From positions 1 to 23,913 of the IMG/VR virus record IMGVR_UViG_3300027973_000218: a DNA stretch of 23,913 nt; one strand, given 5' to 3'. Under the pieces are notes generated by a model. That model did no database searches. It was not told the origin of the DNA and saw nothing but the letters and a program-made list of their open reading frames with translations. How positions within the stretch are numbered: the first letter of the stretch is position 1; every line of letters begins with the position of its first letter. Source of the DNA: a virus. This document shows, in pieces, positions 875 to 18,100 of this stretch. Position numbers and translations under genes: made by a program.

Positions 875-1825
875 TTATTTTTTATTCTTTTTGTAGCCGT
901 GTTTGATCATGCTGTTGACAGATTGCATAATTCTATTTTCCACTTCTTTGTCCATTTTCATAGCATCTTCATTGGCTCTGTCAGCATATTCATCCATGGT
1001 TATGCGTATAGGACTGTAAATTCTACTGTCTTTGTTCATGTCAATGATATCAAATTTATTATTGTCTGGATAAGAAACATTATTGGGAAATGTTGAACCA
1101 AATACCACTGTGGCTGTTTTGTCAAAAGCATGTGCAAGATGTTGGCCCAAACTGTCACAGCCTAAGAAATGATCACACATTTTTATCACAGCACTCCAAA
1201 TTCTTATATGTATATTCTGAGGCACAGCCACTGGAAAATTTATCTGATGTTTACTAAAATCTATGGGAAATTCTGACATCACCATCACAGCATATTGTTT
1301 GCCCAACTGTCTAATTAGATTGATAATGTTTTCCAATTCAAAACTTCTACCACTCACATCTATAAAACTATCGTTGTCTTTTTTAGATACTCTACCAAAA
1401 GGTTGAAACACTACTATTTTTTCTTTTTTAGTGGTTTCTTTTATTTCTTTGATCATCTGTCTTGCCATGATCAGTTCTTCTTTGGAAAGATAAATTTTGG
1501 GTTTTTCTAATGTGCGTAGTCCTTTGCCATTAATCTCTATGTCATATGCTTGTGCAATATTACATTTTTGATTGTAGTATTCCCAAACCCTGTATGGTTC
1601 AGGAGTTATCAGTTGTCTATCTTTTAAGTATTCATTGAATAGATTCTTGTGCCAAACATCATACGCTCTAAAATGTAATTTAGGATGTCCTTTGTAGAAA
1701 TCAGTGCCACCTTCACACACAATAATAAAATCATCATTGGGATTATCGTTGGCATAATTTTCTAGTGCTGGCACTGAACACAATGTTCTACCTGCTCCTC
1801 CGTTAATAAAAAATGCTTTGTTCAT
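875..1825 (-). CDS. GT9-like glycosyltransferase (heptosyltransferase family), paralogue 2
   Basis: A 316-residue protein with the layout of family GT9 (ADP-heptose:LPS heptosyltransferase-type, GT-B fold). The N-terminus has a glycine motif followed by an 'xxPALE' helix (NGGAGRTLCSVPALENY, about residues 8-24). The C-terminal donor half has DHFLGCDSLGQHLAHAF (Asp224, His229), then VVFGSTFP, equivalent to the GT9 'DSGxxHLA...GxTxP' signature. Length is close to the family norm. It is a clear paralogue of the gene at 3631-4575: they share EPYRVWEYYNQKCN, VFQPFGR, DHFLGCDS and PIRITMDE. It begins 1 nt after the carbamoyltransferase stop, so the genes are almost certainly co-expressed. The sugar donor and acceptor are unknown; transfer to a host-surface glycan or a phage structural protein is inference. 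It could also be a GT9-fold protein with changed activity. Confidence 0.75.
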   Translation of the reverse strand: MNKAFFINGGAGRTLCSVPALENYANDNPNDDFIIVCEGGTDFYKGHPKLHFRAYDVWHKNLFNEYLKDRQLITPEPYRVWEYYNQKCNIAQAYDIEINGKGLRTLEKPKIYLSKEELIMARQMIKEIKETTKKEKIVVFQPFGRVSKKDNDSFIDVSGRSFELENIINLIRQLGKQYAVMVMSEFPIDFSKHQINFPVAVPQNIHIRIWSAVIKMCDHFLGCDSLGQHLAHAFDKTATVVFGSTFPNNVSYPDNNKFDIIDMNKDSRIYSPIRITMDEYADRANEDAMKMDKEVENRIMQSVNSMIKHGYKKNKK

Positions 1826-1826
1826 A

Positions 1827-3641
1827 TTAATTCGGCATGTGTATTAATTTTTTATGCTCGGGCAAGTATAGATATTCAATTTTGGAATTTTCTAGAGTTC
1901 TAAATGCATCATCCAAAGTTTCAACCAAAGGTTCACCACCCAAATTAAATGAAGTATTGAATAATATAGGTATACCTGTTTCATCTTTGAATGTTTTAAT
2001 TAAATCATAATAATGTTTATTTTGTTCTTCAGTAACTGTTTGTATTCTACAAGTGCCATCCACATGAATAATTGCAGGAATTTTTTCTTCAACACCTGGT
2101 TGACAATTCACAGCATACATCATAAACGGAGAATCTTTCATGCCACGCAAATCAAACCATTCATGCACATCATCTTGCAATATAGTTCCAGCAAATGGAC
2201 GGAAGTATTCTCTCTTTTTGACTAGATTAACAAAATCTTTGCCATCTTTGAATGTTGGGTCAAACAATATGGATCTATTGCCCAATGCTCTAGGACCGTT
2301 TTCTGATCTACCTTGGAACATGGCCACTATATTTTTTGATTTTAAAAGTTTTACCACATCTTTGTGTGTGGCATCTGTTATTTTAACATTTTTATTTTCA
2401 CTGATGCTGGCTCTTTTTTCAATGTCTGCCAATGTGTATTCTCTTATAGGACCCAAGTATAATGTGTTATGCACTTTTGGAGTTTTGTCAGCAAATATCT
2501 GATGATAGAACATCAATGCTGCACCCATTGCTGTGCCAGCATCGTTGGAAGTTGGTTCCACATACAGTTCAATTCCTTCTTCTTTCAAATGTTCTAAATA
2601 ATAATAGTTGGCCACACAATTTAATCCATATCCTCCTGACAACACCACTCTCTTATTGTTGCTCATGGACACTGCTTTACGAATTAATTTTAAAACTTGT
2701 TCTTGAGTTTGTGTTTGGCAAGCATAAGCCAAATCTCTACGATTTTGTAATAATGTTACATCATCATGAGATTTTCCTATTTCATCTTCCAGATAATCAA
2801 AAATAAGAGCGTTCACTAACGCTGCACTAGGGTAGGTTGGTACAATTAAATTTCTATTGGACAAAGGTGATTTTCCTTCAGTTTCAAATAATTGCGGAAT
2901 TTTATCATTGGGTTTGCCATAGGGAAATAATCCCATGGTTTTGCCTGCTTCAATTGCTTGGAATCCACAATATTGTGTCACAGCTTCGTATACTTTTACT
3001 ATGCCGGCTCTGTCACTGAATATTGCTTCGTGAGTTTTACCAGCTTCGTCAGTAATGTCCGAAGGAAAATTTTTTAATATTGCACCAATCATAGCATCAC
3101 GAGTGGCATAATGTTTGTACAATGAATGAAAGTTTGAAGGATATGCACAATTTATAATTGATTCCACTTCCCAAACAGTGGTCTGTCCTTGAATATTATT
3201 ATTAATGCCAATGAATGTTCCAGCACCATCTACAATCACCGACACAGCACTTTCCCAACCAGATCTGTAAAAAGCACATGCAGCATGTAATTTGTGATGT
3301 ATGTGACTGAGATCAATCACTTGAGGATGGTTGTGAGGATCAGCTGTTCTATCAATCAATCCCATTTTACGTGCCAGTCCAGTGTACACGTCATCACCTG
3401 TAAAATCCACTTTGCCTGCTGTGTCTTTGAGTTTTTGTGTGTGAGCCACAATCAAATAATCTATTTTGTCAGTGTATTTTAATATTTCCATCATGCTGGC
3501 ATAAGGTCCGCCATCATATTTTTGTCTACTTAATCTTTCTTCTTCTATGGAAAAAACAACGTTGCCATCTTTTAACAAACACACTCCGGCATTGTGTCCT
3601 CTAGCAATGGCAGCAATATAACCTGAAGGCTTACTTGTCAT
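1827..3641 (-). CDS. NodU/CmcH/TobZ-family O-carbamoyltransferase
   Basis: A 604-residue protein with both domains of the carbamoyltransferase family, which makes carbamoyl-adenylate from carbamoyl phosphate and ATP and moves the carbamoyl group to a hydroxyl, usually on a sugar. The Kae1-like N-terminal domain shows GHNAGVCLLKDGNVVFSIEE (about 15-34) followed by ERLSRQK, the metal-site motif HHKLHA (115-120) and VDGAGT (137-142). The C-terminal domain shows ENGPRALGNR (447-456), REYFRPFAGT (477-486), HVDGTCRIQ (near 526) and FNTSFN (561-566). Length matches full-size family members and no key motif is missing, so it should be active. It overlaps the upstream glycosyltransferase by 11 nt (ATGACAAGTAA) and is followed 1 nt later by a second glycosyltransferase. 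This implies carbamoylation of a sugar that the flanking enzymes transfer; the acceptor is unknown. Such genes are known as accessory genes in marine T4-like phages. Confidence 0.9.
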   Translation of the reverse strand: MTSKPSGYIAAIARGHNAGVCLLKDGNVVFSIEEERLSRQKYDGGPYASMMEILKYTDKIDYLIVAHTQKLKDTAGKVDFTGDDVYTGLARKMGLIDRTADPHNHPQVIDLSHIHHKLHAACAFYRSGWESAVSVIVDGAGTFIGINNNIQGQTTVWEVESIINCAYPSNFHSLYKHYATRDAMIGAILKNFPSDITDEAGKTHEAIFSDRAGIVKVYEAVTQYCGFQAIEAGKTMGLFPYGKPNDKIPQLFETEGKSPLSNRNLIVPTYPSAALVNALIFDYLEDEIGKSHDDVTLLQNRRDLAYACQTQTQEQVLKLIRKAVSMSNNKRVVLSGGYGLNCVANYYYLEHLKEEGIELYVEPTSNDAGTAMGAALMFYHQIFADKTPKVHNTLYLGPIREYTLADIEKRASISENKNVKITDATHKDVVKLLKSKNIVAMFQGRSENGPRALGNRSILFDPTFKDGKDFVNLVKKREYFRPFAGTILQDDVHEWFDLRGMKDSPFMMYAVNCQPGVEEKIPAIIHVDGTCRIQTVTEEQNKHYYDLIKTFKDETGIPILFNTSFNLGGEPLVETLDDAFRTLENSKIEYLYLPEHKKLIHMPN

Positions 3642-4575
3642 CTTGATTTCTTCTCATTACTCCGTTGATCACATAGTCTTCAATCTCTTCGTTCATAGAC
3701 ATCAATATTTCATTTTTTCTAGCAATTCTTTCGTCCATGGTGATTCTAATTGGATCATACTCCCTATCTATTTCTCCCATATCCATTATGTTAAAATAGT
3801 CACAATCGGGATAAGTGGTATTGACGGGATAGGTAGGTCCCAATACCACAGTGGAAGTGGTGCCTACTATGTAGGCCAAGTGCTGACCCACACTGTCACA
3901 GCCTAAGAAATGATCAGCTTGTTTGATCAGTGCTGTCCACACTCTTAGATTCAATCCTTCGGGCATGGCCACATCATCTGTGTATTTTTGATCCTTAAGA
4001 TCCATGCCAAATTCTGACATCAGTATCACTGCAAAGTTTTCTTTTTGTAGTTTTCGTATCAAGTTCTTAACATCTTTGTATTCAAAACTGCGTCCAGTTT
4101 TATCCAAAAGAGTTTTATCCATGTGCTCTACGCCTCTGCCAAATGGTTGAAACACAATGGCTTTATCTTTTTTAATTTTTGCTTTGATTTCTTCCATCAA
4201 TTTTTGTCCTTGAGCAGTTTCTTCCTTGCTGAGATGGATGGTGGGTTTGGGCAATGACCTCACTCCTTTGGCGTTGATCAATATATCAAAAGCCTGAGAT
4301 AGATTGCATTTTTGATTGTAATATTCCCAAACTCTATAAGGCTCCAAACTTACTATTTCTCTGGATTGTAATTTAGAATGAAATAAATTTTTATGAAAAA
4401 TATCGTAGGTTTTTTGATCCAGTATGGGATGACCTTTGAGTATGTCCACAGCTCCTTCGCAAATGACTAAAAAATCTTTATCGCCCGATTCTTCTGCGTA
4501 TTTTTCCAGTGCAGGAATAGCACACAAAATTCGGCCAATACCTCCGTTTAAAAAAAATGCTTTGGATCTATTCAT
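3631..4575 (-). CDS. GT9-like glycosyltransferase (heptosyltransferase family), paralogue 1
   Basis: A 314-residue GT9-type protein, first gene of the glycan-modification cassette. Visible elements are the N-terminal NGGIGRILCAIPALEKY (residues 10-26) and, in the donor-binding half, DHFLGCDSVGQHLAYIVG with Asp227 and His232, then TVVLGPTYP, a good match to the GT9 'GPTxP' region. It is a paralogue of the 875-1825 protein, with conserved blocks spread along the whole length. Its stop overlaps the carbamoyltransferase start by 11 nt, which suggests translational coupling. The start at 4575 has no Shine-Dalgarno and sits at the foot of an inverted repeat (4581-4610). The family transfers heptose or related sugars to lipopolysaccharide core in bacteria; what it modifies here is unknown. 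No membrane segment is seen, so it is presumed cytoplasmic. Confidence 0.78.
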   Translation of the reverse strand: MNRSKAFFLNGGIGRILCAIPALEKYAEESGDKDFLVICEGAVDILKGHPILDQKTYDIFHKNLFHSKLQSREIVSLEPYRVWEYYNQKCNLSQAFDILINAKGVRSLPKPTIHLSKEETAQGQKLMEEIKAKIKKDKAIVFQPFGRGVEHMDKTLLDKTGRSFEYKDVKNLIRKLQKENFAVILMSEFGMDLKDQKYTDDVAMPEGLNLRVWTALIKQADHFLGCDSVGQHLAYIVGTTSTVVLGPTYPVNTTYPDCDYFNIMDMGEIDREYDPIRITMDERIARKNEILMSMNEEIEDYVINGVMRRNQDDK

Positions 4576-4580
4576 ATATG

Positions 4581-4610
4581 TAATACTGTGCGGGTTTACA
4601 CACAGTATTA
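4581..4610. repeat. 10-bp perfect inverted repeat (hairpin) before the glycosyl cassette
   Basis: TAATACTGTG (4581-4590) is perfectly inverted as CACAGTATTA (4601-4610) around a 10-nt loop. In the minus-strand transcript the stem can extend by 4 pairs after one A-C mismatch, ending right at the ATG at 4575. No T tract follows on the minus strand, so it is not a standard intrinsic terminator. It sits in the largest gap of the window (4576-4646) and could be a processing site, an attenuator, an operator or a translation-masking hairpin. Confidence 0.6.
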
Positions 4611-4612
4611 TA
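4607..4612 (-). promoter_or_regulatory. Possible -10-like TATAAT box
   Basis: The minus strand reads TGATATATAATACTG; TATAAT is a perfect -10 hexamer. No good -35 is found 17 nt upstream (TCACAA). It overlaps one arm of the inverted repeat, so use as a promoter is uncertain. It could give the glycosyl cassette expression separate from the late units. Confidence 0.25.
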
Positions 4613-4646
4613 TATCAACAGTGATTTTGTTGTGAATTATTCTTGA

Positions 4647-5300
4647 CTAGTAAATTGGTACTGTGATTTTGAATGGAATTTTCCAATGCTTGACATTTGC
4701 ATATTTGGTAGGCACATTTCTCAACCAGGTCACATAGGTTTCCAGTTGGGCAATGTCTGCATCAGACAGTGTTTCGTTGCTTTCAATGGCAGCTTCAATT
4801 GCTGTGGCCTGCACAACCAAACTGGCTAAAAAACTTGCTCTGGTCAATGCATGAGTTCTAAATCTAGGTCTTACATATGCTCCGTTTACAAATTTTAAAT
4901 CTATGTTGTAATACTGTTGTGAAATCATTCCTGTGTTGTCGTTCCAAACATATTCAAAAGTTTCATCCACTCCTTCAGCATCTTGAGTTGGCAGTGTTTC
5001 TGTATAATTCTCCACTGGTCCGGTGGTGTACATGCCTGTGAGATAAGCAGCTTCAAATGTGTGTGTTTCTGCATTTAAAATTTGATACATTTTTTCAGCT
5101 TCTTCAATAGCGATGATTGCACTTAGGCCATCCATGGTGTCAGCACCAGCCACATATCTTTCCACTATTTTGGTTTCTTTATCCACACACACTTTTAAAT
5201 ATCTTGGGCCTGTGTAGGTGGCAGGGTATGTTTTATTCTGTGTGGTGGTGTCTAGATATGGCTCATCTGCCAAAGGTATTGTGAAATTTTTGTTTATCAT
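4647..5300 (-). CDS. Putative tail-fibre accessory protein (217 aa), function unknown
   Basis: A 217-residue soluble protein with an acidic middle part (THTFEAAYLTGMY, TQDAEGVDETFEYVW) and a helical C-terminal part (FLASLVVQATAIEAAIESNE, then LETYVTWLRNVPTKYANVKH). The 'LxxYxxWLRNVP...W' ending with a final WKIPF recalls the C-terminal region of phage tail-fibre assembly proteins, and the placement next to candidate adhesin genes fits that. The resemblance is weak and rests on one stretch, so the function is a guess. The start is well supported: AGAGGA lies 9-14 nt before the ATG and a late-promoter-like GATAAATA 27 nt upstream (5327-5334). It could equally be a small baseplate or fibre component. 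Confidence 0.65.
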   Translation of the reverse strand: MINKNFTIPLADEPYLDTTTQNKTYPATYTGPRYLKVCVDKETKIVERYVAGADTMDGLSAIIAIEEAEKMYQILNAETHTFEAAYLTGMYTTGPVENYTETLPTQDAEGVDETFEYVWNDNTGMISQQYYNIDLKFVNGAYVRPRFRTHALTRASFLASLVVQATAIEAAIESNETLSDADIAQLETYVTWLRNVPTKYANVKHWKIPFKITVPIY

Positions 5301-5345: not shown

Positions 5346-6308
5346 TTAACTTGCTATAAATCTGATACGCATGCCACCCCAGCCGCCTCTGATTCCATGA
5401 TCTCTCACATCTGGACAAGGTTGTGGAGGTAGACCACCTGCGCCTATGGGTAAAAATGGTGAACATCCTTGCATCTCATAACATCCGCAGGATCTGTTTG
5501 ATACCCAACAATAGGAGTTGAAAGTGCCTCTGGTAGGTTGTTTGCTGAGTGCTGCCAGTGATTGTAGATAAGCAGGCAGCTGACTGCCTGACATACCACT
5601 TGTGTTGGCTTGTCCGTCTGATGTTTGAAAACTCACTCTAGCGCCTTTTTCTGCAAACATGTAGGCTGGCAGGGGAGCATGATGATGTGTGTAACAAGGA
5701 CATGTGGGATAGCAACCTAAAAATGATGTACAACCTATGGTGCCGCAGCAGTTGATGTCACCACCGTATGCCAGTGATTCCCAACCACCTGAACAATGAT
5801 TGCACACAATGCCGCAGTTGTCGTTGATGGGTCCAAAACTACAAAATCCGTTGGCTCTGTAGCAACAGAACATGCTGGTACCAGTGCTGCAGAAACTGGT
5901 GCCACCTCGGCCACCTCTGGCACACAAACAACCATTGGAAGTAGTGCTGGTCCAACACACTGTGCTGGGATCACCGCAACCTGAAAAACATAAATCATGA
6001 GCATATCTGGGAAAGCCCACACAGCCACACACAAAGTTGGCAGTGGTCACTGCTATGCTTTTTCTTGAATATCCACCTGCATTGCCGGGCAGTCCTCCAC
6101 CACAACAGCACATACGAGATCCTGATCCACCAGCACCCCATATCTCCACAATGGCACAACCTGTGGCTGGTGGTTTCCAACAGAAGCCGTTGCAGTAATT
6201 GGTGTAGAATGTGCCGGGTGAGAATGCATAGATCACACCCTGTTCAAGGTTGTTCTCAGTCACTGTGTATGTCACTTTTGATGATAATATACTTTTTAAT
6301 CCAGCCAT
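5346..6308 (-). CDS. Cys-rich glycine-rich fibre-type protein, paralogue 3 (320 aa)
   Basis: This is the third of three tandem paralogues. It contains 31 cysteines in 320 residues by hand count. After a variable N-terminus, residues about 54-80 (VEIWGAGGSG, then MCCCGGGLPGNAGGYS; CCC at 67-69) match the opening of the glycine-rich domain seen in many phage tail fibres, which usually reads 'VExWGAGGxGG...GGxGGY'. The chain closes with RDHGIRGGWGGMRIRFIAS, the expected final strand of that domain. Between them lie many Cys motifs (GCLCARGG, MFCCYRANGFC, DNCGIVCNHC, CYPTCPC, CGCYEMQGC). No signal peptide or membrane segment is present. Its start overlaps the previous stop by 1 nt (TAATG), indicating translational coupling. 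A virion adhesin or fibre-tip role is inferred; disulfides or bound metal are possible, but the sequence cannot decide. Confidence 0.72.
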   Translation of the reverse strand: MAGLKSILSSKVTYTVTENNLEQGVIYAFSPGTFYTNYCNGFCWKPPATGCAIVEIWGAGGSGSRMCCCGGGLPGNAGGYSRKSIAVTTANFVCGCVGFPRYAHDLCFSGCGDPSTVCWTSTTSNGCLCARGGRGGTSFCSTGTSMFCCYRANGFCSFGPINDNCGIVCNHCSGGWESLAYGGDINCCGTIGCTSFLGCYPTCPCYTHHHAPLPAYMFAEKGARVSFQTSDGQANTSGMSGSQLPAYLQSLAALSKQPTRGTFNSYCWVSNRSCGCYEMQGCSPFLPIGAGGLPPQPCPDVRDHGIRGGWGGMRIRFIAS

Positions 6309-7309
6309 TAGTTTAACCCCAAATATCCTGTTCCCACGTATTTAATCCTAATTATACCATGTCCACCTCGGTAGGCATGATCTCTCACATCTCCACATGG
6401 ATGTGGTGGTGCTCCTGCATGACCTGGTGGCACAAATGCTATGCAACCATTCATGTTGTAGCAACCGCAATATCTATGACCACCACTCCAACAGGATGTA
6501 TAGTGACCGCCCATGGTGGGATTGCGCGAAGTAAGTCCTAATGTGTGTATGTAACCATACTGAGCGCCACCGCTCCAGTTGTAGGCTCCATTGTCCACAT
6601 CATTGGTGTAGGTGATCCATGCTCCACAGTCTGCATACATCTTGGGTGGTGTTCTGGTGTGATACCAAAATGAACATGGACATGATGGCAAACAGCCAAA
6701 GAAACTCGCACAACTGAATCCAGCTGCCATGTTGCAGGTGCCGCCGTATCCTTGAGCTTCATGCACAGCACAACCTGCGCCTCTGTAGTTGCAAACTATT
6801 CCGCAGTTTTCACCAGCGGTTTTGGTGTTGCAAAATCCGTTGGCTCCAAAGCAGCAATAGGCCGATGGAGTGGTAGAACAATAGCTGTAGCCACCTTGAC
6901 CACCTTCTGCACACATACAACCATTGGTGCCATTGCCCTGCCAGCACACTCCTGTGCTTTCTGATCTGCCTCTGTAACATAAATCGTCTGAGTTACCGCA
7001 GGATAATCCCACGTTGCCTCTGATACAACAGCCTATGGTGACGTTGACTGTTCTTGAAGAATAAGCTCCTGGATTGCCAGGCAATCCAAATCCGCAGCAA
7101 CACATTTTGCCTCCTGATCCACCAGCACCCCATATCTCTATGGTGGCTGTGCCTGTGCCGGGTGATATCCAACACACACCACAACAGAAGTTGGTGCCCA
7201 CTGTGGTGCCTGGAGTGTAGGCCCAAATTCTACCTTCTTCGGTGTTGCTTTCTAAACCGTTCAACTGGAACGACAGTTTGGTTTCTAATAATGATCTCAG
7301 TGTGGCCAT
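6308..7309 (-). CDS. Cys-rich glycine-rich fibre-type protein, paralogue 2 (333 aa)
   Basis: The middle member of the tandem trio, with about 30 cysteines in 333 residues. The conserved frame is IEIWGAGGSGGKMCCCGFG (CCC at 70-72), LPGNPGAYS, GCMCAEGGQGGYSYC, YCCFGANGFC, ENCGIVCNY, CLPSCPC, CGCYNMNGC and the closing VRDHAYRGGHGIIRIKYVG. A short extension (TGYLGLN) follows the point where its sisters end. The section after 'SCPC' (about 220-285: YADCGAWITYTNDV and on) differs most between the three copies, which would suit a variable binding face. AGGA upstream of the ATG at 7309 gives a ribosome site, and only 5 nt separate it from the previous gene. The general scaffold is a phage tail-fibre glycine-rich domain in which many small-residue positions are Cys. 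The receptor is unknown. Confidence 0.72.
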   Translation of the reverse strand: MATLRSLLETKLSFQLNGLESNTEEGRIWAYTPGTTVGTNFCCGVCWISPGTGTATIEIWGAGGSGGKMCCCGFGLPGNPGAYSSRTVNVTIGCCIRGNVGLSCGNSDDLCYRGRSESTGVCWQGNGTNGCMCAEGGQGGYSYCSTTPSAYCCFGANGFCNTKTAGENCGIVCNYRGAGCAVHEAQGYGGTCNMAAGFSCASFFGCLPSCPCSFWYHTRTPPKMYADCGAWITYTNDVDNGAYNWSGGAQYGYIHTLGLTSRNPTMGGHYTSCWSGGHRYCGCYNMNGCIAFVPPGHAGAPPHPCGDVRDHAYRGGHGIIRIKYVGTGYLGLN

Positions 7310-7314
7310 AATGT

Positions 7315-8286
7315 TTATCCTGCTATAAATTTAATTCTGATGGCACCATTGCCACCTTTGCTGGCATGATCTCTCACACCTGGACATGGATGTGGTCCTG
7401 CCGACGGAAATCCTGGAGGCAATAGATTCATGCAGCCTTCATTTTCATAACATCCACAAGCTCCTGAAAATCCCCAACAGGTAGCAAAATGTGATCCCAT
7501 CTGAGGCCATCTGCTGGCTCCTGCCAGTGCTTGAGAATATTGACTTCGGCCTTGTCCTGACCAGTTGGCAAAACCATTGCCGTCATCTGAATTGAAACTC
7601 ACCACCACTCCGCATTTGGAAAAATATCCTGCTGGTCCTTGCATGTGAAAATGTGTGCTGCATGGACAAGATGATCCTGAAGCTCCTAGGAAACTCACAC
7701 AACTGAATCCACCTGGACAGTTGAGGTCTCCACCATATGCCCGTGCGCACCATCCACCTGAACAACATTTGTTGCACACTATGCCGCAATCACCGTTCAC
7801 TCCCAAAGTGGTATAAAAACCGCCTGCTGTGAAACAACAGTAGGCATTGGTGCCTGTGCTGCAATAAGAAATTCCGCCTCGGCCACCTTCTGCACACATA
7901 CAACCTGTGTTGCTGCCATTGGCATAAATGGTCACTCCAGTGGCATCTGAACAGCCTCTGAAACACAGTGCATCATTGCCGCAGGCTATGCCTGGTGATC
8001 CTGCGATATATCCGCAGCATGTGAGAGTGACTGTTTTTTTACTGTATGCACCTGGGTTACCAGGAGTACCAAATCCACAACAGCACATTTTGGCTCCTGA
8101 GCCACCTGCGCCCCATATCTCAATTATTGCTGTGCCTGATTGACAGGGATGAAAACAAATGCCTGCGTGCAGTCCTTCAAAATTGTTGGCTTGAAAATTA
8201 TATATCTGACCAGATTCCACATTGGTCTCCGTCACTTGTGGAAAGTTGTTGTTCTTGGTTGCCGTAAGGTTTTTCAAACTTGCCAT
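7315..8286 (-). CDS. Cys-rich glycine-rich fibre-type protein, paralogue 1 (323 aa)
   Basis: The first-transcribed member of the trio, with about 29 cysteines in 323 residues. The N-terminal 45 residues (MASLKNLTATKNNNF and on, ending in GQIYNFQANNF) are variable among the copies and may form the attachment part. The conserved scaffold follows: IIEIWGAGGSGAKMCCCGFG (CCC at 68-70), TPGNPGAYS, GCMCAEGGRGGISYC, YCCFTAGGF, GDCGIVCNKCC, SSCPC, CGCYENEGC, and the end VRDHASKGGNGAIRIKFIAG. Conserved Asp-His (RDH) near the end and the Gly-rich closing strand are kept in all three. The ribosome site is weak (AAAGAA). The 49-nt gap upstream holds no clear promoter, so it is probably read from the 8692 element. 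Role inferred: virion adhesin or fibre tip. Confidence 0.72.
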   Translation of the reverse strand: MASLKNLTATKNNNFPQVTETNVESGQIYNFQANNFEGLHAGICFHPCQSGTAIIEIWGAGGSGAKMCCCGFGTPGNPGAYSKKTVTLTCCGYIAGSPGIACGNDALCFRGCSDATGVTIYANGSNTGCMCAEGGRGGISYCSTGTNAYCCFTAGGFYTTLGVNGDCGIVCNKCCSGGWCARAYGGDLNCPGGFSCVSFLGASGSSCPCSTHFHMQGPAGYFSKCGVVVSFNSDDGNGFANWSGQGRSQYSQALAGASRWPQMGSHFATCWGFSGACGCYENEGCMNLLPPGFPSAGPHPCPGVRDHASKGGNGAIRIKFIAG

Positions 8287-8335: not shown

Positions 8336-8668
8336 TTACACTGCGCCAACAATCCAACCATAAGTTACGCCTGTATAAATCAAAGTCACAATTGCTTGAT
8401 TCAAGTCAATTGTTAAATTGTCAGCTGCTCCGTTGATCAGTGCACCGTTTCTAGCCACAGTGATGTTGTTGGTTCCTGCTAAGTTGCCAACGTCTATGAT
8501 TTGAATGGTGTCATTGTTCAACAGTCCAGTGCTCAGTGGCAAAGTGATAGTGAAGGCTGCTACTGTAGAGTTAGCCAAAATTCTATCATTCACAACTGCT
8601 TGATACGTTGTACTAACTTCACGTATAACTATACCAGCGGTTCCGGTTGTTGATATGTATCTTCCCAT
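8336..8668 (-). CDS. Small virion structural protein (110 aa), fibre-cap type
   Basis: A 110-residue protein with the pattern of a beta-rich domain that often ends phage fibres or occurs alone in marine T4-like phages: 'VNDRILAN...FTITLP' (about 27-45), then IQIIDVGNLAGTNNITVARN, then a final VTLIYTGVTYGWIVGAV. The 'TLP...D.I.I.D..GNAxTNNITI...G...I' series is the recognisable element. No Cys, signal peptide or membrane segment is seen. Start support is good: AAGGAC lies about 10 nt before the ATG, and a late-promoter-like CATAAATA 24 nt upstream. It leads the unit that contains the Cys-rich trio, so the proteins may be parts of the same fibre or baseplate appendage. The exact position in the virion is unknown. 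Confidence 0.72.
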   Translation of the reverse strand: MGRYISTTGTAGIVIREVSTTYQAVVNDRILANSTVAAFTITLPLSTGLLNNDTIQIIDVGNLAGTNNITVARNGALINGAADNLTIDLNQAIVTLIYTGVTYGWIVGAV

Positions 8669-8712: not shown

Positions 8713-9033
8713 TTATGCAGTTGATGTTTCAATGCCGTAAACCACCACGCTAGCGTTGCCACCCGATGCGTATGCCACTAATCTTTGTGTTGCTGCCAAT
8801 ACCAAACCAGTTCTTTCTAGAACTCCTTTGGACAGCACTTCCACATCGTATTCAATGTACTCACCCAATGTAGGAGTAGCTGTGGTAGCCACAGCCAATC
8901 TAAAAGTTTGAGCTTGATTGCCTCGATTTAGGAAGTTTACAGCAACTATTGCAAACGTATCAGCTGGACAGGTATATACTGTTGTTAAGGCAGCTGCGGT
9001 TACATCCGACGCTCCCAATCTTCCTGTTGCCAT
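8713..9033 (-). CDS. Small virion structural protein (106 aa)
   Basis: A 106-residue beta-rich protein of a kind recurrent in marine T4-like phages. Recognisable stretches are MATGRLGASDVTAAALTTVY, then TCPADTFAIVAVNFLNRGNQ, then EYIEYDVEVLSKGVLERTG and the ending VVVYGIETSTA. The 'Y(T)CPAxTFAxVxVNxxNRG' stretch suggests an immunoglobulin-like sandwich used in phage decoration or tail-tube-attached proteins. AAGGAGAA 6 nt before the ATG at 9033 is the best ribosome site in the window, implying high translation. It lies 28 nt after the 2006-aa gene with no promoter-like element between, so it is probably co-transcribed with it. Location in the particle is unknown. Confidence 0.72.
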   Translation of the reverse strand: MATGRLGASDVTAAALTTVYTCPADTFAIVAVNFLNRGNQAQTFRLAVATTATPTLGEYIEYDVEVLSKGVLERTGLVLAATQRLVAYASGGNASVVVYGIETSTA

Positions 9034-9061: not shown

Positions 9062-12000
9062 TTAGCCTTGTAGGAAAAGCCCCATTGCTACGGGCGCTCC
9101 GTTAACTCCCGCTGTGAAATTCACAGGGGATTCAAAGTTTATTGTCACTCCAGTGGTGGTCTCAATGGTTGAAGCAAATATTGTGATCAAACCTGCTGTG
9201 ATTTGGTTCACGTTCAAACTGCTGGCTCCACCACCGATTTGACTAGCTATATATGTTCTAATCGCTCTCTGTGTGGGCACAATTTGGTCACTGTTGGCTG
9301 CCATTGTTCCATCTGTGGAGAATTCATTGATGGAAGCACTGCTGCCTCCCAATACTAATTCACCCAACTGAAGTTCTTGTAATCCTGAAATATTGAACGC
9401 ATCAGCATTCAATGTGGCTACACCCGTGCTCTGCTCTACTGAGAATAAATCTCCCACTCGGAAGTTACCGTCTTGATCTGTGCTGGTAAAGAACACACGA
9501 CCTCCGCCTGATTCCACAGTCTCGTTGTCTGAATCAGCAGGAATCAAAGGTATGCCAGGATAATTGGTTGATACAAAACCACCTGTACCTATGTCTAAGA
9601 AATCGTGACCTGTTAATCTGATTTGCGAATATCTAATTTTAATTGTGACAGGATCACCATGCGGTGGTGCTTCTGACACTTCTATCTGTGGGCTCACTTG
9701 CAACAGTGCAGTGAATGGATACTGTGTGCCCAATAGATTCTGCACAGTTACCAGTTTGTAATAGTTGCCTGGCAATGAAGCAAATTCTACATTGGCTCCT
9801 GCCTGTGGAATTTGCGTCAATCCTTCCACTTGTATGAATTTGCCATTCTGTAGACTGTTTCTAAATCCGCCAAATTCTGTCACAGTGCCCAATGAAGCAA
9901 TGTAAACTCCGTAGTCAGTGGTGTTCAAAGGCACAGTCAGTGCTGAATCCACATACAATGAAAAAGTGGTTGCAGTCAACACATTCACATAGTAGTACAC
10001 TCCGCTGTTGATTTGGAACATGCCAGCCACGTTTGCAAAAATAACTTTTTGTCCACTGGTGTAAGTGTGGTTTGTTGAAGTTGTGACCACTCCTGGGTTG
10101 GCATTGGTGATGCCACTCACAGTGCGTACCACGCCTGTTTCGGTCACTGTGGTTACGGCTGTCAAAAATGATGATCCTCTGTTGGTGAATGTGGGTTGAC
10201 CCAAAGCTCCATTGCCAATGAAAACTTCCACAGGTGCTTCCACTGTGTTGCTGGGATCCACTATGGTCACTGTGGGAGCCGTCACATAGCCTGAACCTGG
10301 TTCAATAATTCTAATGGCAGATATTCTTTCTGCTGTGACCACTGCTCTGGCAATGGTTGTGATACCTGAAGGAGGAGCACTCACAATAATACGTGGAGCA
10401 TAGTCATACTTGGTGGTACCGTCTAATATAACTTCTACCAATCTCACACTCATGGTGCCTGCAGCAGTGCTGAGCGTGACTGCTGCGCCGCCCAAAGAAG
10501 TGCTGACTTTGAATTGTGTTGCTGTGAATCCTGTGCTGATCACATAGTATTGAGTGTATGGATTTATGCCACCAAATGTGGTGCCATCAAACTGCACTGA
10601 TGCACCCACATACAATCCTGCAGTGGATGCACAGGTAATCACATCTGTGCTCACTGTGGTGTTGGTACAAGTGGTGTTAACCAAATGATCCCAACCTGCT
10701 TTGTGTATGGTCATGGTGCCTACAGCATCAGCCGAGACATCAAAAGTTGATCCACCTGGTGTGGTGCTGATAGTGAATGTGGTTCCAGTGGGCTTGCTCA
10801 ACACATAGTAAATGGTTGGATTGGTAGCAGTGGTGGTCACTCCACCAAATGCTGTGCCGCTGAACATGATGGGCATGTTAATGTCTAATGTGCTGCTGCT
10901 AGCACAAGTGAATCTATCATTTGACGCTGTGGCAGCTGTGACTGTGAATGATGTGAATGAAGGTCGGGCCACTTTGACAGCCTTGGTACCTGCATTGAAT
11001 CCCACCACGTAAGCATACTGTCCTGCTCCTAATCCTTCAGTGATGTATATGGATAATCCGGTCAACTGACTGGCCAATGATGTGTCAGTGTTGGAAATAG
11101 TGATAGTTTTATCAGTGCCGCTTTGAGACACGTTGCTGGCTGTGATATATCCATCACCACCATAGTTGCTCTCAGGTGATGTGACAGTTTCATCTAATCT
11201 AATTTCATACACAGCACCGTTGCGCACTGTGGCAGTGGTACCAGCAAGACCAAAACCATCTCCTGATATGGTCAGTGTGGCTGCTGTGGTGTAATTGGTT
11301 CCAGCATTGGTATACTCCAAAGCCAATATTCTATCACCATCTGTGAAAGTATTTCCCACTGTGGCATCTGTGCTTTTGTTGTTGACCACGCATGTGACTG
11401 GAACTTCTGAAGCATCTCCGCCTTCAGACACTGATCCAAATTTTCCATAAGAGTTATTTCCGTTGGTAGCACGCACTTTGCCACCATTTTCAGCTAGGTA
11501 TCCAATGTGATTGTAGTAACTGAACACAGAAACTAATTCTGATCTACCTAGGTTGGTCACCCAGAATCCGATACCATCTGATAAAATTTGTGTGAAGTCA
11601 TTGGCCACCACTGAATCATTTCCACCGTTGTGCAGTGCGCCATCCACTTTTAATCCCACACAACCTGTGCCAAAGGTACTGACGTTTTGCACATAGGGTG
11701 ATTTGTTGGTGATCCACACATCTTCATGTGATGGTCCCCAACCTGCATCCAATGATACGTAGGCTCCAGCAGTGGGTCTTTGTGTGCCGTAGGCGTTAGC
11801 AGCACCCAATGAGCCTGTCAATCCTTGCAGTGTGCAGTTTCTTAATCCTGTGCCGTTTCTCATGTAGAACATGTCCGAAGCCACACTGCCGGTCACAGCA
11901 GTTTCATAATACTTGGCAGCCACGATGGATTTGTAATTGCCTGTGTAGATCAAATCATGGGCCACAGCATCCACATATTCTCTCACATCTCTTTTGCAAG

Positions 12001-15000
12001 ACAACTCGTTGTCTGCTGTGAAATATGTAAGGAAAGCACCAGGATTGGTTTTTTTGGTGTATTCCACCACTTCAGTGGCTAAAAATTCTCTATTTTCAAT
12101 CAATCTCAACACAGCATCTGTGTAACCAATTGCAGTCTGAGGCAGATTAGAACCACTCACAGTGGGCTCGGGACTGGAACTGTCACCAATCACATTGTAG
12201 TTGATATAATCATAAATGTCTTCCACAATGCTCACTGCTGCGGCTGCTGCTGGAGCAGATCCTGCTGGAGCACTCACATTTTGTGTAATAGTGTTGCCGG
12301 CGCCCACAGTGCTCACAGTGAAAGTGGCAGCCAAACTGCTGACTCCCAATTGTCCTGATGCTATGGTAAGAGTGTTGCCCACTGTGTAGCCTGTGCCTGA
12401 AGTGTTCACAGTGATTAGAGTTACGAAACCTGTGGCATTCACAGTGACATTAAATGTTGCGCCACTGCCTGTTCCACCAGTCACTGTTCTGTTGGTGTAT
12501 ACTCCAGAAGTTCTGTTGACATCTTGTACTGGTGTGGACACTGATGTGACATATCCAGCTGCTGTGGCTGATACAGGAGTGTTGGTAATAATATCATCAA
12601 TGATATTTTCTAATCTGTCAATGCCTAGCAATGTGTATGGAGTGTCTGAAATATTTACATAGCTGGGAGCAGGTCTGATGTTGGTGCTTCTCAACTCATC
12701 TCCCACAATGGCTGTGCTTTCGCGCACACGTATGGGCAATACTTCATAAAATATTCCTGTCTTCACATTCACAGTGTTGCCGGCAATAATCTCAGCTGGC
12801 ACATCATCCACATCGCCTGCTGTGATTGCATCTATGATGATGTCCATTAATGATTCTATCAAACCTTGTGCTTGAGGTTCTTCCATAATATCGTTGTCAA
12901 TCACTTGTGACACAACCGCTTGCAATTCTACATAGGCTGCGTCATTGGAAATGGCAGCATCAATCACGGTCTTGGCAAATTCAATAGCAGCGCTGGTCTC
13001 TGTTTCCTGACCATACACATATGATCCGCTGCCTGTGTAATAAGAAATAGCAGCCAATCTTGATTTCTCATTGCCACCATGACTCAAATCCCATTGCACA
13101 GCATCAATGATTTGTCCTATATCTCTTAGACATTTGGCACTGTCATATTTTAATTTTACCACCATAGTGCCTGCAGCGGTGCTGAGTGCAACTGCTGAAC
13201 CTGTGGGTGTGAGACTCACACTGATCTGCGTAGATGTTTTAGTGATGATATAATATTCAGTCACAGTGCTCACTCCGCCAAATGTGGTGCCAGTGAATTC
13301 CACTCTCATGCCCACTCTAAGATTCACAGTGCTGTTGCAGGTGATTAAATTGGTGCTTGTGGTGGTGTTGGTACAAGTGGCTTGGAACGTGGCATTTATG
13401 TAGGCCACAGTTTCTCTCTGTATGAATGCTTTGTTTCTCACTAATAAATTTTTTGCTTTAGGATACAACGGTCCTTTGTCTATTTCTTTAAGAGCATATT
13501 GAATGGTTCTCCAAGGTTGGTTCAATGTGGCACCGTAGTCTGGAGCTGGTGCATCCACACCTGATAGAGCCACGTACCATACATTGTCAATCTTTCCAAA
13601 GTAACCCCATTCAGGCAGCGTGCCTGCAGAGTTCACCAATAATGTTTGACCTGAAAGTCCAATTGGTAATCTAGTAGGACCTGATGGTCCGTACAATAAT
13701 AAATCTCCTTGTGTGGTCAGTGCTGTGCTTTCTGCACCTCCCGATAATAGTTGCCAATATGTGCCAGTGTCCACTCCAGCTCCTGGTGCATAATCTGGTT
13801 GTGTGATTGTGGCAGGTCCCACGTTGTTGGAAGTGTGAGCCAGTATACAAATATATGAATTGTTGGTATTAATAATTCCTCGTACCACATCACCTTTGTC
13901 ATACAGAGTGGCATTGGCCCAGTTGCCTTTCCAATAGATTCCTTCGTTGAGTTTGTCCCAGTAGGTCACATTGGGTGGTCTGTTGCCTGTGCTGTCTTCA
14001 ATACAGATATAAGTGAATCCTCCCAAGCGTACCACATCACCATTGAGATATGCAGTGCCGTTGTTGTAATCACCTCTTAGACGGAATCCTGTTACAAATA
14101 GATCCCAATCCACACCTGCATAGGTGTTGGGGTTTTTATTCAAACTATTGGTCTTGGCCACGTAACCATAACCACCATAGGTCACAAAGTCACCTATCTG
14201 ATAGTTGGTTGCGGAACTCCATGAATCTTCAAATTCTAATCCTGGTACAAACACAGCCCAGTTGGCTTGATCTGCAGTGAGTGTGGCAGTAGAAACGTGA
14301 TAAGTGGTACAGATCCAAAGACTTGGTCCCCACTTGACCACATCATTGATTTTGTATCTGGTGGTACCTGCCCAATCTGATTTATATTCAATACCTTTGT
14401 GTAGATAATCCCACTTGGCTTGATCCGCTTCCAATCCACCACCCAACAGTGTGGCTGATGCATTTGAAGTGTGTCCTAGGTTGGCCACGTACAGTTGTCC
14501 ACCGTATCTGACCACGTCTCCCAATTTGTATCTGGTAGTGGTAGCCCAAGCATTCAACCAATTGAATCCTTTGGAGAAAACTTCCCAGTTGCCAATATTA
14601 TTTTCCAAACCTAAAGTGGTGGTGGCAGCTGATGTGTGTGCAGTGATACAGGTGTAGATGTATGCACCGTACTTGACTAAATCATTTACTTTGTATCTGG
14701 TACTGATTGCCCAATCTGATTTGTAATCAAATCCTTCTGAAAATAAATCCCATTTGGATTGATCTGCTTCCAATCCCAAAGTGGTTGTGGCAGCTGAAGT
14801 GTGTCCTTCGTTGGCAATGTACAAATACCCACCATATTTCACAATGTCATTGGGTTTGTATGTGGTGTTCAAAGACCAGTTGGCTTTCCACTCCTGACCA
14901 TCACTCATCAGGTTCCATTTTGCAGCAGTTAAATCTGTTTGAAAAGTACCGCTGGTGTGTCCCACCACGCAGATATAGGTACGGCCACCATATCTTATCA

Positions 15001-15082
15001 CATCATCGATAAAATACTCAACGGCAGTGATCCAGGCACCTTTCCAAATGAACCTAATCCTACCTAATTTAAACTCAGCCAT
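9062..15082 (-). CDS. Giant tail-fibre/baseplate structural protein (2006 aa)
   Basis: The second of two giant paralogues. Order by rough residue: 13-455, eight CBM5/12-like repeats (W...Y..GDVVxYGG..Y.C...H); 495-530, a beta-helix opening (VWYVALSGVDAPAPDYGATL, then PWRTIQYAL); 540-770, helical segments (AKCLRDIGQIIDAVQWDLSH) wrapped around a beta module; about 775, VKTGIFYEVLPIRVRESTAI then VGDELRSTNIRP; 992-1065, a second helical segment (SCKRDVREYVDAVAHDLIYT); 1074-1238, the core shared with its paralogue; 1380-1546, two more copies of the beta module; about 1656-1729, an FCCH-like segment; 1815-2006, the shared C-terminal domain with GGGRVFFTSTDQDGNFRVGD. AAGGAA lies about 10 nt before the ATG, and GATAAATA 26 nt before it. 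Proteins with this make-up are virion structural proteins in marine T4-like phages. Sugar binding and placement as a long fibre are inferred. Confidence 0.85.
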   Translation of the reverse strand: MAEFKLGRIRFIWKGAWITAVEYFIDDVIRYGGRTYICVVGHTSGTFQTDLTAAKWNLMSDGQEWKANWSLNTTYKPNDIVKYGGYLYIANEGHTSAATTTLGLEADQSKWDLFSEGFDYKSDWAISTRYKVNDLVKYGAYIYTCITAHTSAATTTLGLENNIGNWEVFSKGFNWLNAWATTTRYKLGDVVRYGGQLYVANLGHTSNASATLLGGGLEADQAKWDYLHKGIEYKSDWAGTTRYKINDVVKWGPSLWICTTYHVSTATLTADQANWAVFVPGLEFEDSWSSATNYQIGDFVTYGGYGYVAKTNSLNKNPNTYAGVDWDLFVTGFRLRGDYNNGTAYLNGDVVRLGGFTYICIEDSTGNRPPNVTYWDKLNEGIYWKGNWANATLYDKGDVVRGIINTNNSYICILAHTSNNVGPATITQPDYAPGAGVDTGTYWQLLSGGAESTALTTQGDLLLYGPSGPTRLPIGLSGQTLLVNSAGTLPEWGYFGKIDNVWYVALSGVDAPAPDYGATLNQPWRTIQYALKEIDKGPLYPKAKNLLVRNKAFIQRETVAYINATFQATCTNTTTSTNLITCNSTVNLRVGMRVEFTGTTFGGVSTVTEYYIITKTSTQISVSLTPTGSAVALSTAAGTMVVKLKYDSAKCLRDIGQIIDAVQWDLSHGGNEKSRLAAISYYTGSGSYVYGQETETSAAIEFAKTVIDAAISNDAAYVELQAVVSQVIDNDIMEEPQAQGLIESLMDIIIDAITAGDVDDVPAEIIAGNTVNVKTGIFYEVLPIRVRESTAIVGDELRSTNIRPAPSYVNISDTPYTLLGIDRLENIIDDIITNTPVSATAAGYVTSVSTPVQDVNRTSGVYTNRTVTGGTGSGATFNVTVNATGFVTLITVNTSGTGYTVGNTLTIASGQLGVSSLAATFTVSTVGAGNTITQNVSAPAGSAPAAAAAVSIVEDIYDYINYNVIGDSSSPEPTVSGSNLPQTAIGYTDAVLRLIENREFLATEVVEYTKKTNPGAFLTYFTADNELSCKRDVREYVDAVAHDLIYTGNYKSIVAAKYYETAVTGSVASDMFYMRNGTGLRNCTLQGLTGSLGAANAYGTQRPTAGAYVSLDAGWGPSHEDVWITNKSPYVQNVSTFGTGCVGLKVDGALHNGGNDSVVANDFTQILSDGIGFWVTNLGRSELVSVFSYYNHIGYLAENGGKVRATNGNNSYGKFGSVSEGGDASEVPVTCVVNNKSTDATVGNTFTDGDRILALEYTNAGTNYTTAATLTISGDGFGLAGTTATVRNGAVYEIRLDETVTSPESNYGGDGYITASNVSQSGTDKTITISNTDTSLASQLTGLSIYITEGLGAGQYAYVVGFNAGTKAVKVARPSFTSFTVTAATASNDRFTCASSSTLDINMPIMFSGTAFGGVTTTATNPTIYYVLSKPTGTTFTISTTPGGSTFDVSADAVGTMTIHKAGWDHLVNTTCTNTTVSTDVITCASTAGLYVGASVQFDGTTFGGINPYTQYYVISTGFTATQFKVSTSLGGAAVTLSTAAGTMSVRLVEVILDGTTKYDYAPRIIVSAPPSGITTIARAVVTAERISAIRIIEPGSGYVTAPTVTIVDPSNTVEAPVEVFIGNGALGQPTFTNRGSSFLTAVTTVTETGVVRTVSGITNANPGVVTTSTNHTYTSGQKVIFANVAGMFQINSGVYYYVNVLTATTFSLYVDSALTVPLNTTDYGVYIASLGTVTEFGGFRNSLQNGKFIQVEGLTQIPQAGANVEFASLPGNYYKLVTVQNLLGTQYPFTALLQVSPQIEVSEAPPHGDPVTIKIRYSQIRLTGHDFLDIGTGGFVSTNYPGIPLIPADSDNETVESGGGRVFFTSTDQDGNFRVGDLFSVEQSTGVATLNADAFNISGLQELQLGELVLGGSSASINEFSTDGTMAANSDQIVPTQRAIRTYIASQIGGGASSLNVNQITAGLITIFASTIETTTGVTINFESPVNFTAGVNGAPVAMGLFLQG
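11370..11862 (-). repeat. Conserved core copy B, shared with the 1794-aa gene
   Basis: This segment encodes MRNGTGLRNCTLQGLTGSLG onward and aligns with 17935-18430. Perfect nucleotide identity runs are visible: 26 nt (11589-11614 against 18153-18178) and 29 nt (11682-11710 against 18246-18274). Flanking parts of the two genes are much more diverged. Confidence 0.8.
13730..15046 (-). repeat. Eight CBM5/12-like protein repeats in the 2006-aa protein
   Basis: Eight units of about 48-68 residues each follow W(K/L)xxW...TxY..xDVVxYGGxxYxCxxxHTS...W....xG. Examples are WSLNTTYKPNDIVKYGGYLY (unit 2) and WATTTRYKLGDVVRYGGQLY (unit 4). The pattern resembles the carbohydrate-binding modules of chitinases (CBM5/12). 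The repetition is at protein level; the DNA copies have diverged. Confidence 0.75.
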
Positions 15083-15118: not shown

Positions 15119-18100
15119 CTAACTACCATATCCATTGCTGGTGTCTATCCCACTCACAGCATCACCTTCGTTGAGCTCTGTGGAAGCTACTCCACCCAAG
15201 AAATAATTCAATGCCAGCATGGATCCTTTGATTCCTGCCTTGAAATTCACCGGTGAATTTATCTGTATAGGCTCTCCACCCACATTAAATATGAAGTCAT
15301 TTTGTATCTGTATGGCACCTGCCCTTAGAATAGACACGTTCAAAGAGGATCCACCACCTGAAATTCTACTTTGTATGTAAGCTATGATTGCTTTCTGTGT
15401 GGGTACTATGTTGTCACTGTTGGCTGCCATGGTGGCATCTATGCTGAATTCACGTATCACTGCTCCTGATCCACCCAATACCACTCCACCCAGAGCCAAT
15501 TCAGTCAGACCATCCAGTGTGAAGAAATCTGCACTTAATGTCACAATACCAGTGTTCTGTTCCACTCTGAATTGTTCTCCTACTCGGAAGTTACCATTTT
15601 GATCTGTGCTGGTGTAGAACACACGTCCTCCACCTGACTCAACCACTTCATTGAATTGTGCAGGTTCATAACCTGCAGTGAATCCTGTTTTGTAAAGATC
15701 TGGATAATTGGTTGTGAATTTATTACCTGTGCCTATGTCTAAGAAATCGTGACCAGTCAATCTAACCTGACTGTAATTTTGTCTGATAGTGATTGACTCA
15801 TTATGACCTGGTGACAAGAAAGCATCCACTCCTGGACTCACTCTTAATGTGCCAAAAATATTAGGTTCTACACCACCCAATTGAACAAAATTACCCAATT
15901 TAAACAGTGAGTTGGGAATGTTAGCAAATTCCACATTGTCACCTGGGCTGGGCAATCTAGATAAATTTTTAATTCTTAAAAATTTTCCTGTTTGATATTT
16001 GTCAGCCAATCCATCGCCGCTCACAGTGGCACTCACGTTTAAAAATCCTGTGCCTCTGTTGGTAAATGTGGGTTGACTTATGGTACCATTGTTGGTTCTC
16101 ACGGAATAAAGAGCATCAATAACATTTTCATTATCCACCACTGTGATGGTAGGTGCGAATGAATATCCACTGCCTGGTTCTATCAATTCAATCTGACTGA
16201 TTCTTCCAGCATTGGTTCTTATTCTGCCCAACGCTCTTGCTCCATATCTGATCACCTTGATCTGATTGGTACTTGTATCAGTCAAAGGAATAAAACATGG
16301 ACCATTCACTGATCCACCAGTGATTTGTACAAACACTCCAGGACCTCCGATGGGCAACTGAGTGCCTAAAACTTTCCAATGCTTACCGTCAATACTTTCT
16401 GCAAGATCTCCTGATTCAGTGACAGCCACAAAACATCCTTGACTGTAACTGATCACATATTGATCTGACTCTGGTGGTAATTCACTGGGCTGCCACACAG
16501 TGATGTTAGATGCTGCCACAGTGCTCTGGTTGGCCAGTGTGTAATAAAATCTGTTGCTCAATGTGCTGGAGTCATTGGGATTATCATTGCAAGCTGCCAC
16601 AAATCTATTGTTGCCATACACAATGTCCTTCACATTTATTCCTGTGCTGCCTATGTCAGGTCCTTGATACCAACTCACACCTAGATTGGGACTTTCATAA
16701 GTTTGTCCCAGATCATCACACACAATAAACAGACCTGATCCACCGGCTGAATGTGTGAGCGCTGGTGTGGATCCATCATAAGGCGCTACTGCTGCTGCAG
16801 TCCACGATACTCCATTGTCTGCGGATCTCAATACAAAACCCTGATTGGTGGTGATGATGAAAATATCCTGTTCACATGAGATGCTGGTGAATGAACCATA
16901 ACCTCCTGGAGTGGTTAATCCTGTCCAAGTGGATCCTGTGGTGGTGCCGGATATAGCATTGGTAGATATGGCTAATAAATGAGTGCTGCTTCGAGCTGTA
17001 TAAAGATAATTCACTGGAGCCAATCCTGTGCAGGCTGTCCAAGTGCTGCCGTTGGTGGTAAAATATCCACCGCTGGCACTGAGTACCACAGTGACATTGG
17101 TGCTGCCGAATCGCGCTGATCCTACCACTCCCCATGTGGCACTGATGGGCAGTGTGGTGTTGCTGACAGAATATGTGGGATCTGAAAAAGATGCCAAAGG
17201 TTCAATGCTGTATTTGGTGGATCCATCCAACACAGGTTCAATGGCCAACCCTCCCAAAAGATGTTCAAAACCAGGTAATCCATCAAACTGTCTCACCACG
17301 CTGATACTTTTGTTGGGATGGTCATAGTAGGATATCACTCCGTACTGACCTCTGCCTGTGCCTTCTATGATTTGCACTCTTTGTCCTATTATTCTACCCG
17401 CTACAAAATATCCTACACCAGTGGCTCCTGTGAGCACAAACACTGCACCACCAGGAGTTTCACTTATTCTTATGGTGGCAGCATTCACTAATTCTTTCAC
17501 ATAGTACACAGTGTCTGGCACTATGTTGCCAAAAGCCGAACTTGGAAAAATAATTGCATCATTCACATTCATTTCTGTGATGTTTTGCACAGTGATGGTG
17601 TTGGCTGGGTTTCCGCTGGTGGCTGTGAAAAGTTTTTCATATTGTGGTTCATATTGTGCAGCCAACAGTATGCTGTTATCATCACCACCTTGAGCATTGC
17701 CCAGTATGTTGGTGTAACCTAATCCTCCTGTAATTCCGCTGTCCAAAGGATCTGTCAATCTCACTTCGCTGATGGACTGATAGCGTGTGTTGTCATAACC
17801 TATGAAGGCAGATGCTCCTGCACCTGAACCTGTGATGGTCACTGTGGCGCTGGTGTAATCCTGACCTGTGTGCGAATATCCAAAACAAAATATCTGATTT
17901 TCATCGTTGTACACACTGTTGATTAATGCTTCTCCAGATTGGTTGTCTAATTCAGCAGTGATGGGAGTTTCTGCCAAAGAAAAACCTTCTGCCACAGCAC
18001 CATATGCACCATATGAATTGTTGCCGTTGGTTCCACGCACTTTGCCGCCGTCTTCTGCCAAGTATCCTATGTGACAGTAGTATGTAAACACAGAAACTAA

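Follow-up and report, generated by a model that had tools for sequence, protein, structure and literature searches.

The window analysed here, a 23,913-nucleotide stretch of viral DNA (positions 1 to 23,913 of IMG/VR record IMGVR_UViG_3300027973_000218), encodes three neighbouring cysteine (Cys)-rich paralogues, termed p1, p2 and p3 in gene order. Our preferred explanation, held tentatively and with little short of even confidence, is that these genes encode distal receptor-binding tail-fibre tips of a T4-like cyanophage, whose loops carry a conserved lattice of Cys, most likely of disulfides. Such proteins would be a new, Cys-packed variant of the known fibre tip composed of a tumour necrosis factor (TNF)-like and a glycine-rich domain, and they point to a means, so far unstudied, of hardening or wiring a part that may grip the host. 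To our knowledge, neither receptors nor tip structures are known for most cyanophages.

The Cys shares of p1, p2 and p3 range from 9.3 to 9.7% and their glycine (Gly) shares from 15.6 to 18.3%. The remaining 15 main open reading frames (ORFs) of the window contain 54 Cys in 6830 residues (0.79%), and at this background rate the binomial p values of the three paralogues are 9e-24, 3e-23 and 2e-22. These values confirm an earlier note on this DNA, which had described about 9-10% Cys in the trio and few Cys in the other proteins. Its range of 29-31 Cys per protein was correct at the upper end only, the counts being 30, 31 and 31. In a three-way alignment the other two paralogues are 46 and 48% identical to the first. 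An IEIWGAGGSG-like start, a GGxGxxRIxx end, the motif CCC and many further Cys are in register. Both the opening and closing strands of glycine-rich type and the fixed CCC near residue 70 were thus recovered as proposed, the motif beginning at residues 68 (p1), 70 (p2) and 67 (p3). Cys codons are a mixture of TGT and TGC, so that no unusual genetic code is required.

An AlphaFold2 (AF2) model of p1 built with 113 sequences reached a predicted local distance difference test score (pLDDT) of 80.9 and a predicted template modelling score (pTM) of 0.80. Comparison with solved structures revealed matches to Pam3 gp24 (7ypx, Z 15.2 over 201 residues, root mean square deviation 4.8; 7yfw, Z 14.7) spanning residues 15-323 and 25-323 of the model. 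Further matches were the Bxb1 tail tip (Z 12.1) and the extracellular TNF-like plus glycine-rich domains of ALK/LTK (Z 7.9-9.2), an animal receptor of similar fold and other function. The next structures scored Z 4.5 and below. Among viral predicted structures, proteins of S-CAM3, Syn9 (gp38) and P-SSM2 were in the top five. According to the model, p1 combines a beta core of TNF-like fold with a glycine-rich loop domain of the Pam3 gp24 type. The glycine-rich phage fibre scaffold suspected in the earlier note is supported by this match and by the Pfam domain PF21722 (Gly_rich_2), whose cut-off is passed by three of nine Cys-rich isolate relatives scanned (S-CAM1_107, S-SSM7_114 and S-SSM7_116). 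A sequence search of the PDB gave a single match at chance level (E 0.13).

Pam3 gp24 is described as a trimer of one protein with a domain of 39% Gly, for which gp25 serves as fibre assembly chaperone and whose glycine-rich loops, it is proposed, point towards the receptor (PMC9608196). Searched for cystein- and disulfide, the main text of that paper contains neither. The window resembles this system in the fold of the p1 model and in a probable chaperone-family gene adjoining the putative fibre genes. It differs in having three paralogues instead of one, with less Gly and abundant Cys. Moreover, the distal tip of Pam3 is reported to be variable, whereas the CCC segment is the least variable part of the window family.

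Conservation of the Cys positions in homologues, on which the earlier note had staked its reading, was evident from 113 aligned members, in which 13 Cys are invariant. A level of 95% Cys or more is reached by 19 of the 36 Cys-majority columns in these rows, compared to 23 of 55 columns for Gly, indicating that Cys is as conserved as Gly. Five Cys are common to all three subfamilies of the family at a level of at least 90%. Out of 25 segments, the one with the CCC (67-73) displayed the lowest variability, 0.26 bits with its own Cys counted; the flanks of this segment reached 0.50 and 0.54 bits, and non-Cys positions average 1.33. None of the 30 Cys of p1 lies inside the eight long strands of the AF2 model that were chosen as core (p 0.003). 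Cys-rich and low-Cys rows are separated by one branch with a support of 100/99. In an alignment with seven low-Cys relatives, rough because composition differs strongly, 10 of 16 Cys-majority columns were gapped in all seven and one more in six, suggesting that the loops were mainly lengthened. This agrees with the earlier proposal that Cys were added to the scaffold. An exchange for small residues fits less well, though Gly falls from 23.8% in low-Cys relatives to 15.7-17.1% in Cys-rich proteins, as read from the same alignment.

To judge from sequence, the trio belongs to an unnamed family of T4-like cyanophages comprising PHROG 4205 and its kin. IMG/VR loci, designated by L numbers, were collected with p1 (19 loci), an alignment (79), an S-SSM7 protein (79), an S-CAM1 protein (26) and a P-SSM2 protein (1) as queries, using the best 80 of 257 relatives for the alignment and the best 80 of 89 for S-SSM7. 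Many of the p1 loci (L001-L019) reappear among those of the alignment query. A hidden Markov model (HMM) search of 212 sequences, comprising these loci and phage records, found 609 ORFs in 211 of them, the exception being the Syn9 stretch. The 593 complete members contain 7.6-11.9% Cys (median 9.9); these values include duplicates and come from Cys-bearing queries and a Cys-rich HMM, which low-Cys relatives would escape.

S-CAM1, S-CAM3, S-SSM7 and Sf-FS3 each encode three relatives and P-SSM2 two, all annotated as hypothetical protein, in line with the expectation that similar proteins exist unannotated in other marine phages. Records of S-SSM6a and P-SSM5 likewise gave matches to the family. 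When six whole phage records were compared with PHROG 4205, which has no assigned function, P-SSM2 gave two matches (62-76 bits), Syn9 none and the other four three each (180-345 bits). The members of PHROG 4205 are Cys-rich homologues in tandem triples with a like neighbourhood. The window proteins match this group weakly over most of their length (27-44 bits, E 9e-6 to 8e-11) and form a separate, deeply split subfamily. In P-SSM2 the Cys-rich relatives PSSM2_304 and PSSM2_306 (PHROG 35878) lie in a like cassette, which differs in its two copies with a chaperone-like gene between them. A tblastn search with p1 against isolated phages gave no match at 1e-5; relatives appeared at E up to 10 and by profile. 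Syn9 did not match the subfamily profiles under default filters and matched weakly with --max. No description of these Cys-rich cyanophage proteins was present in the titles and abstract openings of the literature matches listed. In four loci (L099, L100 and L102 at 3761-4996, L101 at 3770-4996) the middle paralogue is enlarged to 409-412 residues with 36-40 Cys.

Three copies were found in 196 of the 211 loci, two in 6 and one in 9. Eight of the 15 short counts are located at sequence ends (L018, L019, L039, L044, L045, L051, L058 and L186). L093, L094 and L098 have one copy without a Cys-rich neighbour, the L098 sequence stopping 160 bases after this copy; two copies are present in L095, L104 (P-SSM2), L107 and L213. 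The single copy of L093 (3035-3988, 31 Cys) lies in a different neighbourhood, with no further Cys-rich ORF listed in the locus. An obligatory trio in every carrier is ruled out by the loci with one or two copies. Removal of near-duplicates reduced 185 complete triads to 82 distinct ones. A single triad is contained in each of five virus records (134-364 kb, perhaps not complete), and in one of them the middle copy aligns as two pieces. Two triad-bearing viral records, L085 and L099, are of jumbo size (364 and 353 kb).

On a tree of 246 rows (FastTree, with long-branch warnings) the position label changed 13 times compared to 116.8 times after shuffling, which indicates that p1, p2 and p3 are largely stable orthologues within each subfamily. 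An exception to this grouping is p2 and p3 of L183. Between subfamilies the copies do not group by position. A single ancient triplication was rejected by approximately unbiased (AU) tests, in which the p1, the p2 and the p3 copies of the three subfamilies were each constrained to stay together (p 1e-92, 2e-6 and 5e-6, respectively). The trios may have arisen independently or have been homogenised, possibly by early gene conversion in each lineage. Tandem trios of low-Cys glycine-rich proteins occur in S-RIM44 (L215, 6191-8480) and Sf-FP1 (L216, 6252-8542) immediately following a giant gene for a fibre or structural protein. Five of these six proteins are at or above the Gly_rich_2 cut-off and the sixth is just below; Syn9 gp38, with the same type of domain, is above it. 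The two low-Cys trios contain 0.4-1.6% Cys and 22.7-25.3% Gly, in contrast to the window proteins. Syn9 gp39 (L214, 31149-32327) is likewise glycine-rich and by eye carries one long stretch in two copies separated by unlike sequence, as might result from recombination or a frame shift.

The repeated arrival at three copies and the trimeric state of this fold in Pam3 suggest a tip of three chains; such a tip is plausible and, given the loci with one or two copies, not obligatory. A three-chain tip would change the view of host-range diversification. C1q-type heterotrimers, whose A, B and C chains are encoded by a related set of three genes and share a TNF-like trimeric fold, provide an analogy without claim of homology. 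Going further, the three paralogues might have evolved or been re-homogenised repeatedly, become position-specific orthologues and formed one TNF-like A/B/C trimer, whose loop ends are linked within and between chains by the conserved Cys lattice, through disulfides or metal. We consider this extended proposal possible and rather doubtful. If true, it would represent both a heterotrimeric receptor-binding tip of a phage and a glycine-rich fold hardened by Cys in a way not yet described.

The trio is part of a gene cassette (Table 1). A relative of the gene downstream of p3 is present in 193 of 211 loci at a median of 51 bases behind the last tip gene. From 92 relatives of its product, 33 match PF16778 (Phage_tail_APC) and 33 match PHROG 4912 (tail fiber assembly). 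With a profile of the 45 S-SSM7-, S-CAM1- and P-SSM2-type members, the copy in the window was matched at E 5e-10, and 36 out of 47 members of window type were matched at E 1e-3 or better; a profile-profile comparison gave a probability of 99% over 203 columns. In a structure search the model of this protein reached Z 6.3 at best, with C-terminal helices only; 2kz6 scored Z 5.2 and was also found by profile (E 0.0023). There was no full-length match, and Pam3 gp25 was not among the matches listed, which excludes nothing. Two tandem chaperone-like genes follow the triad in L037 (8025-8675 and 8725-9369) and L052 (8026-8679 and 8731-9393). Upstream of the tips, P-SSM2 and S-SSM7 have a large gene annotated as tail fiber-like at the place of the giant ORF.

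Table 1. Features of the Cys-rich gene cassette, with positions in the window.
Feature	Position	Strand	Remarks
Putative fibre-tip paralogue p1, first in gene order	7315..8286	-	323 aa, 30 Cys; PHROG 4205 E 7.5e-11; AF2 model
Putative fibre-tip paralogue p2	6308..7309	-	333 aa, 31 Cys; PHROG 4205 E 8.9e-6
Putative fibre-tip paralogue p3	5346..6308	-	320 aa, 31 Cys; PHROG 4205 E 4.1e-10
CCC of p1, residues 68-70, in loop 59-80	8077..8085	-	found in 113/113 aligned rows
CCC of p2, residues 70-72	7094..7102	-	
CCC of p3, residues 67-69	6102..6110	-	
Probable fibre assembly chaperone, PHROG 9740 family	4647..5300	-	217 aa; PHROG 9740 E 2.8e-6; AF2 pLDDT 96
Small upstream cassette protein	8336..8668	-	PHROG matches including tail families; similar-sized gene at the S-CAM1 counterpart place
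Small upstream cassette protein	8713..9033	-	PHROG 11338 tail fiber E 1.3e-7; similar gene at the S-CAM1 counterpart place
Giant ORF, possible long tail fibre	9062..15082	-	2006 aa; from the counterpart large gene in P-SSM2 and S-SSM7

Taken together, we envisage a tip whose chains would each resemble Pam3 gp24, with a beta core of TNF-like type next to a domain of glycine-rich loops, and would probably fold with help from the product of the adjoining downstream gene. The loops would have become longer in this lineage and filled with Cys. About 19 conserved Cys in each chain might form a core that ties the loops together, its disulfides most likely forming once virions reach oxic water and yielding a rigid tip, while the less conserved Cys could vary freely.

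Several observations weigh against this explanation. PHROG 4205 at E up to 1 also matched two of 14 control genomes. A Pfam scan of the three window proteins gave no match reaching the cut-off, Gly_rich_2 included, and Gly_rich_2 was matched in one of 113 window-type relatives (E 0.0036). Some shorter predicted loop strands of p1 contain Cys, for instance 43-45, 128-132 and 168-171. The chaperone name of the downstream gene, probable as it is, was transferred through distant relatives, because none of 10 window-type members tested matches PF16778 or PHROG 4912. In general, virion location, receptor binding, the chaperone role, disulfide chemistry and a role in stability are steps that we infer. 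The pairing tests, run without a disulfide-rich control family, point in the same direction. Co-changes of Cys in the same and in opposite directions were about equally frequent (100 versus 102; 56 versus 51), the branches with any change showed exactly one changed Cys in 38 of 87 and in 62 of 103 cases, and the parity of Cys per triad was random (even/odd 15/15; 18/23).

Pairing of all Cys as disulfides is unsupported by these tests, since single changes and random parity weaken a fully stapled structure. The co-change results speak against a network in which every Cys is paired; pairing within the conserved core is compatible with them, and the peripheral, less conserved Cys are probably not obligately paired. 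Some column pairs did change jointly. C129 and C167 are missing together in two rows, and C158 and C202 in six of the eight rows without either, which represents few independent events. Co-change was also noted for a column pair of S-SSM7 type (5 to 0; p 8.5e-6, uncorrected for the 351 pairs) and for one of window type (3 to 0; p 1.1e-4, 780 pairs).

The conserved Cys might instead coordinate a metal (Zn, Fe, Cu or Fe-S) in a fibre tip that folds or adsorbs metal-laden. The CxC, CC and Cx3C spacings are compatible with this, and odd Cys numbers and single gains or losses are less troublesome for metal than for disulfides. Numerous thiols exposed to oxic surroundings would have to be protected, and no Pfam metal-binding domain was found in the three proteins or 113 relatives. 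A reported precedent is the Cys-bound Fe-S cluster at the outer surface of the lambda gpL tail tip (PMC10721106). On balance we regard metal binding as a possible and rather unlikely explanation. General knowledge of extracellular proteins makes disulfides the most likely state of the conserved Cys. A tip locked in either way would show how an adhesin made in a reducing cell hardens outside. Free thiols that bond covalently to thiols or disulfides of the host surface, making adsorption irreversible, would account for many Cys without pairwise constraint that lie outside the main strands of p1, and the proposed orientation of the Pam3 loops towards the receptor (PMC9608196) would suit them. This is nevertheless improbable, as there is no known host partner and the CCC segment is nearly invariant, whereas receptor sites usually vary.

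The very high Cys content would also befit a metallothionein-like protein or redox buffer produced in the cytoplasm of infected cells, in particular as the virion location is our own deduction. The fold match of p1 to fibre tips, the chaperone-family neighbour, the tail-fibre genes upstream in isolates and the position of the low-Cys trios of S-RIM44 and Sf-FP1 right after a giant fibre or structural gene make such a role very improbable. Functionless compositional drift is hardly credible. Some Cys columns indeed change often, but the invariant Cys, the five shared by all subfamilies, the absence of any complete member below 7.6% Cys from the 593 found with the Cys-rich profile, and the low Cys content of the other window genes all contradict it.

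For the preferred disulfide-bearing fibre tip, the isolates P-SSM2, S-SSM7, S-CAM1, S-CAM3 and Sf-FS3, which carry the cassette, are existing material for study. Virion proteomes of cyanophages have been reported for S-SM1, S-PM2 and Syn9 (PMC3037559), S-SCSM1 (PMC9602691) and S-CREM2 (PMC10665884).

Two further features of the window were observed. The giant ORF at 9062-15082 and a second one at 15119-20503 (1794 residues), both on the minus strand, begin by eye with tandem repeats of the W..YK.ND.V.YGG type. On the same strand, at 875-4575, two related PHROG 8954 genes flank a Nol-like carbamoyltransferase gene and show weak, sub-cut-off similarity to Glyco_transf_9. Each of the 24 phage records with a match has one such place.

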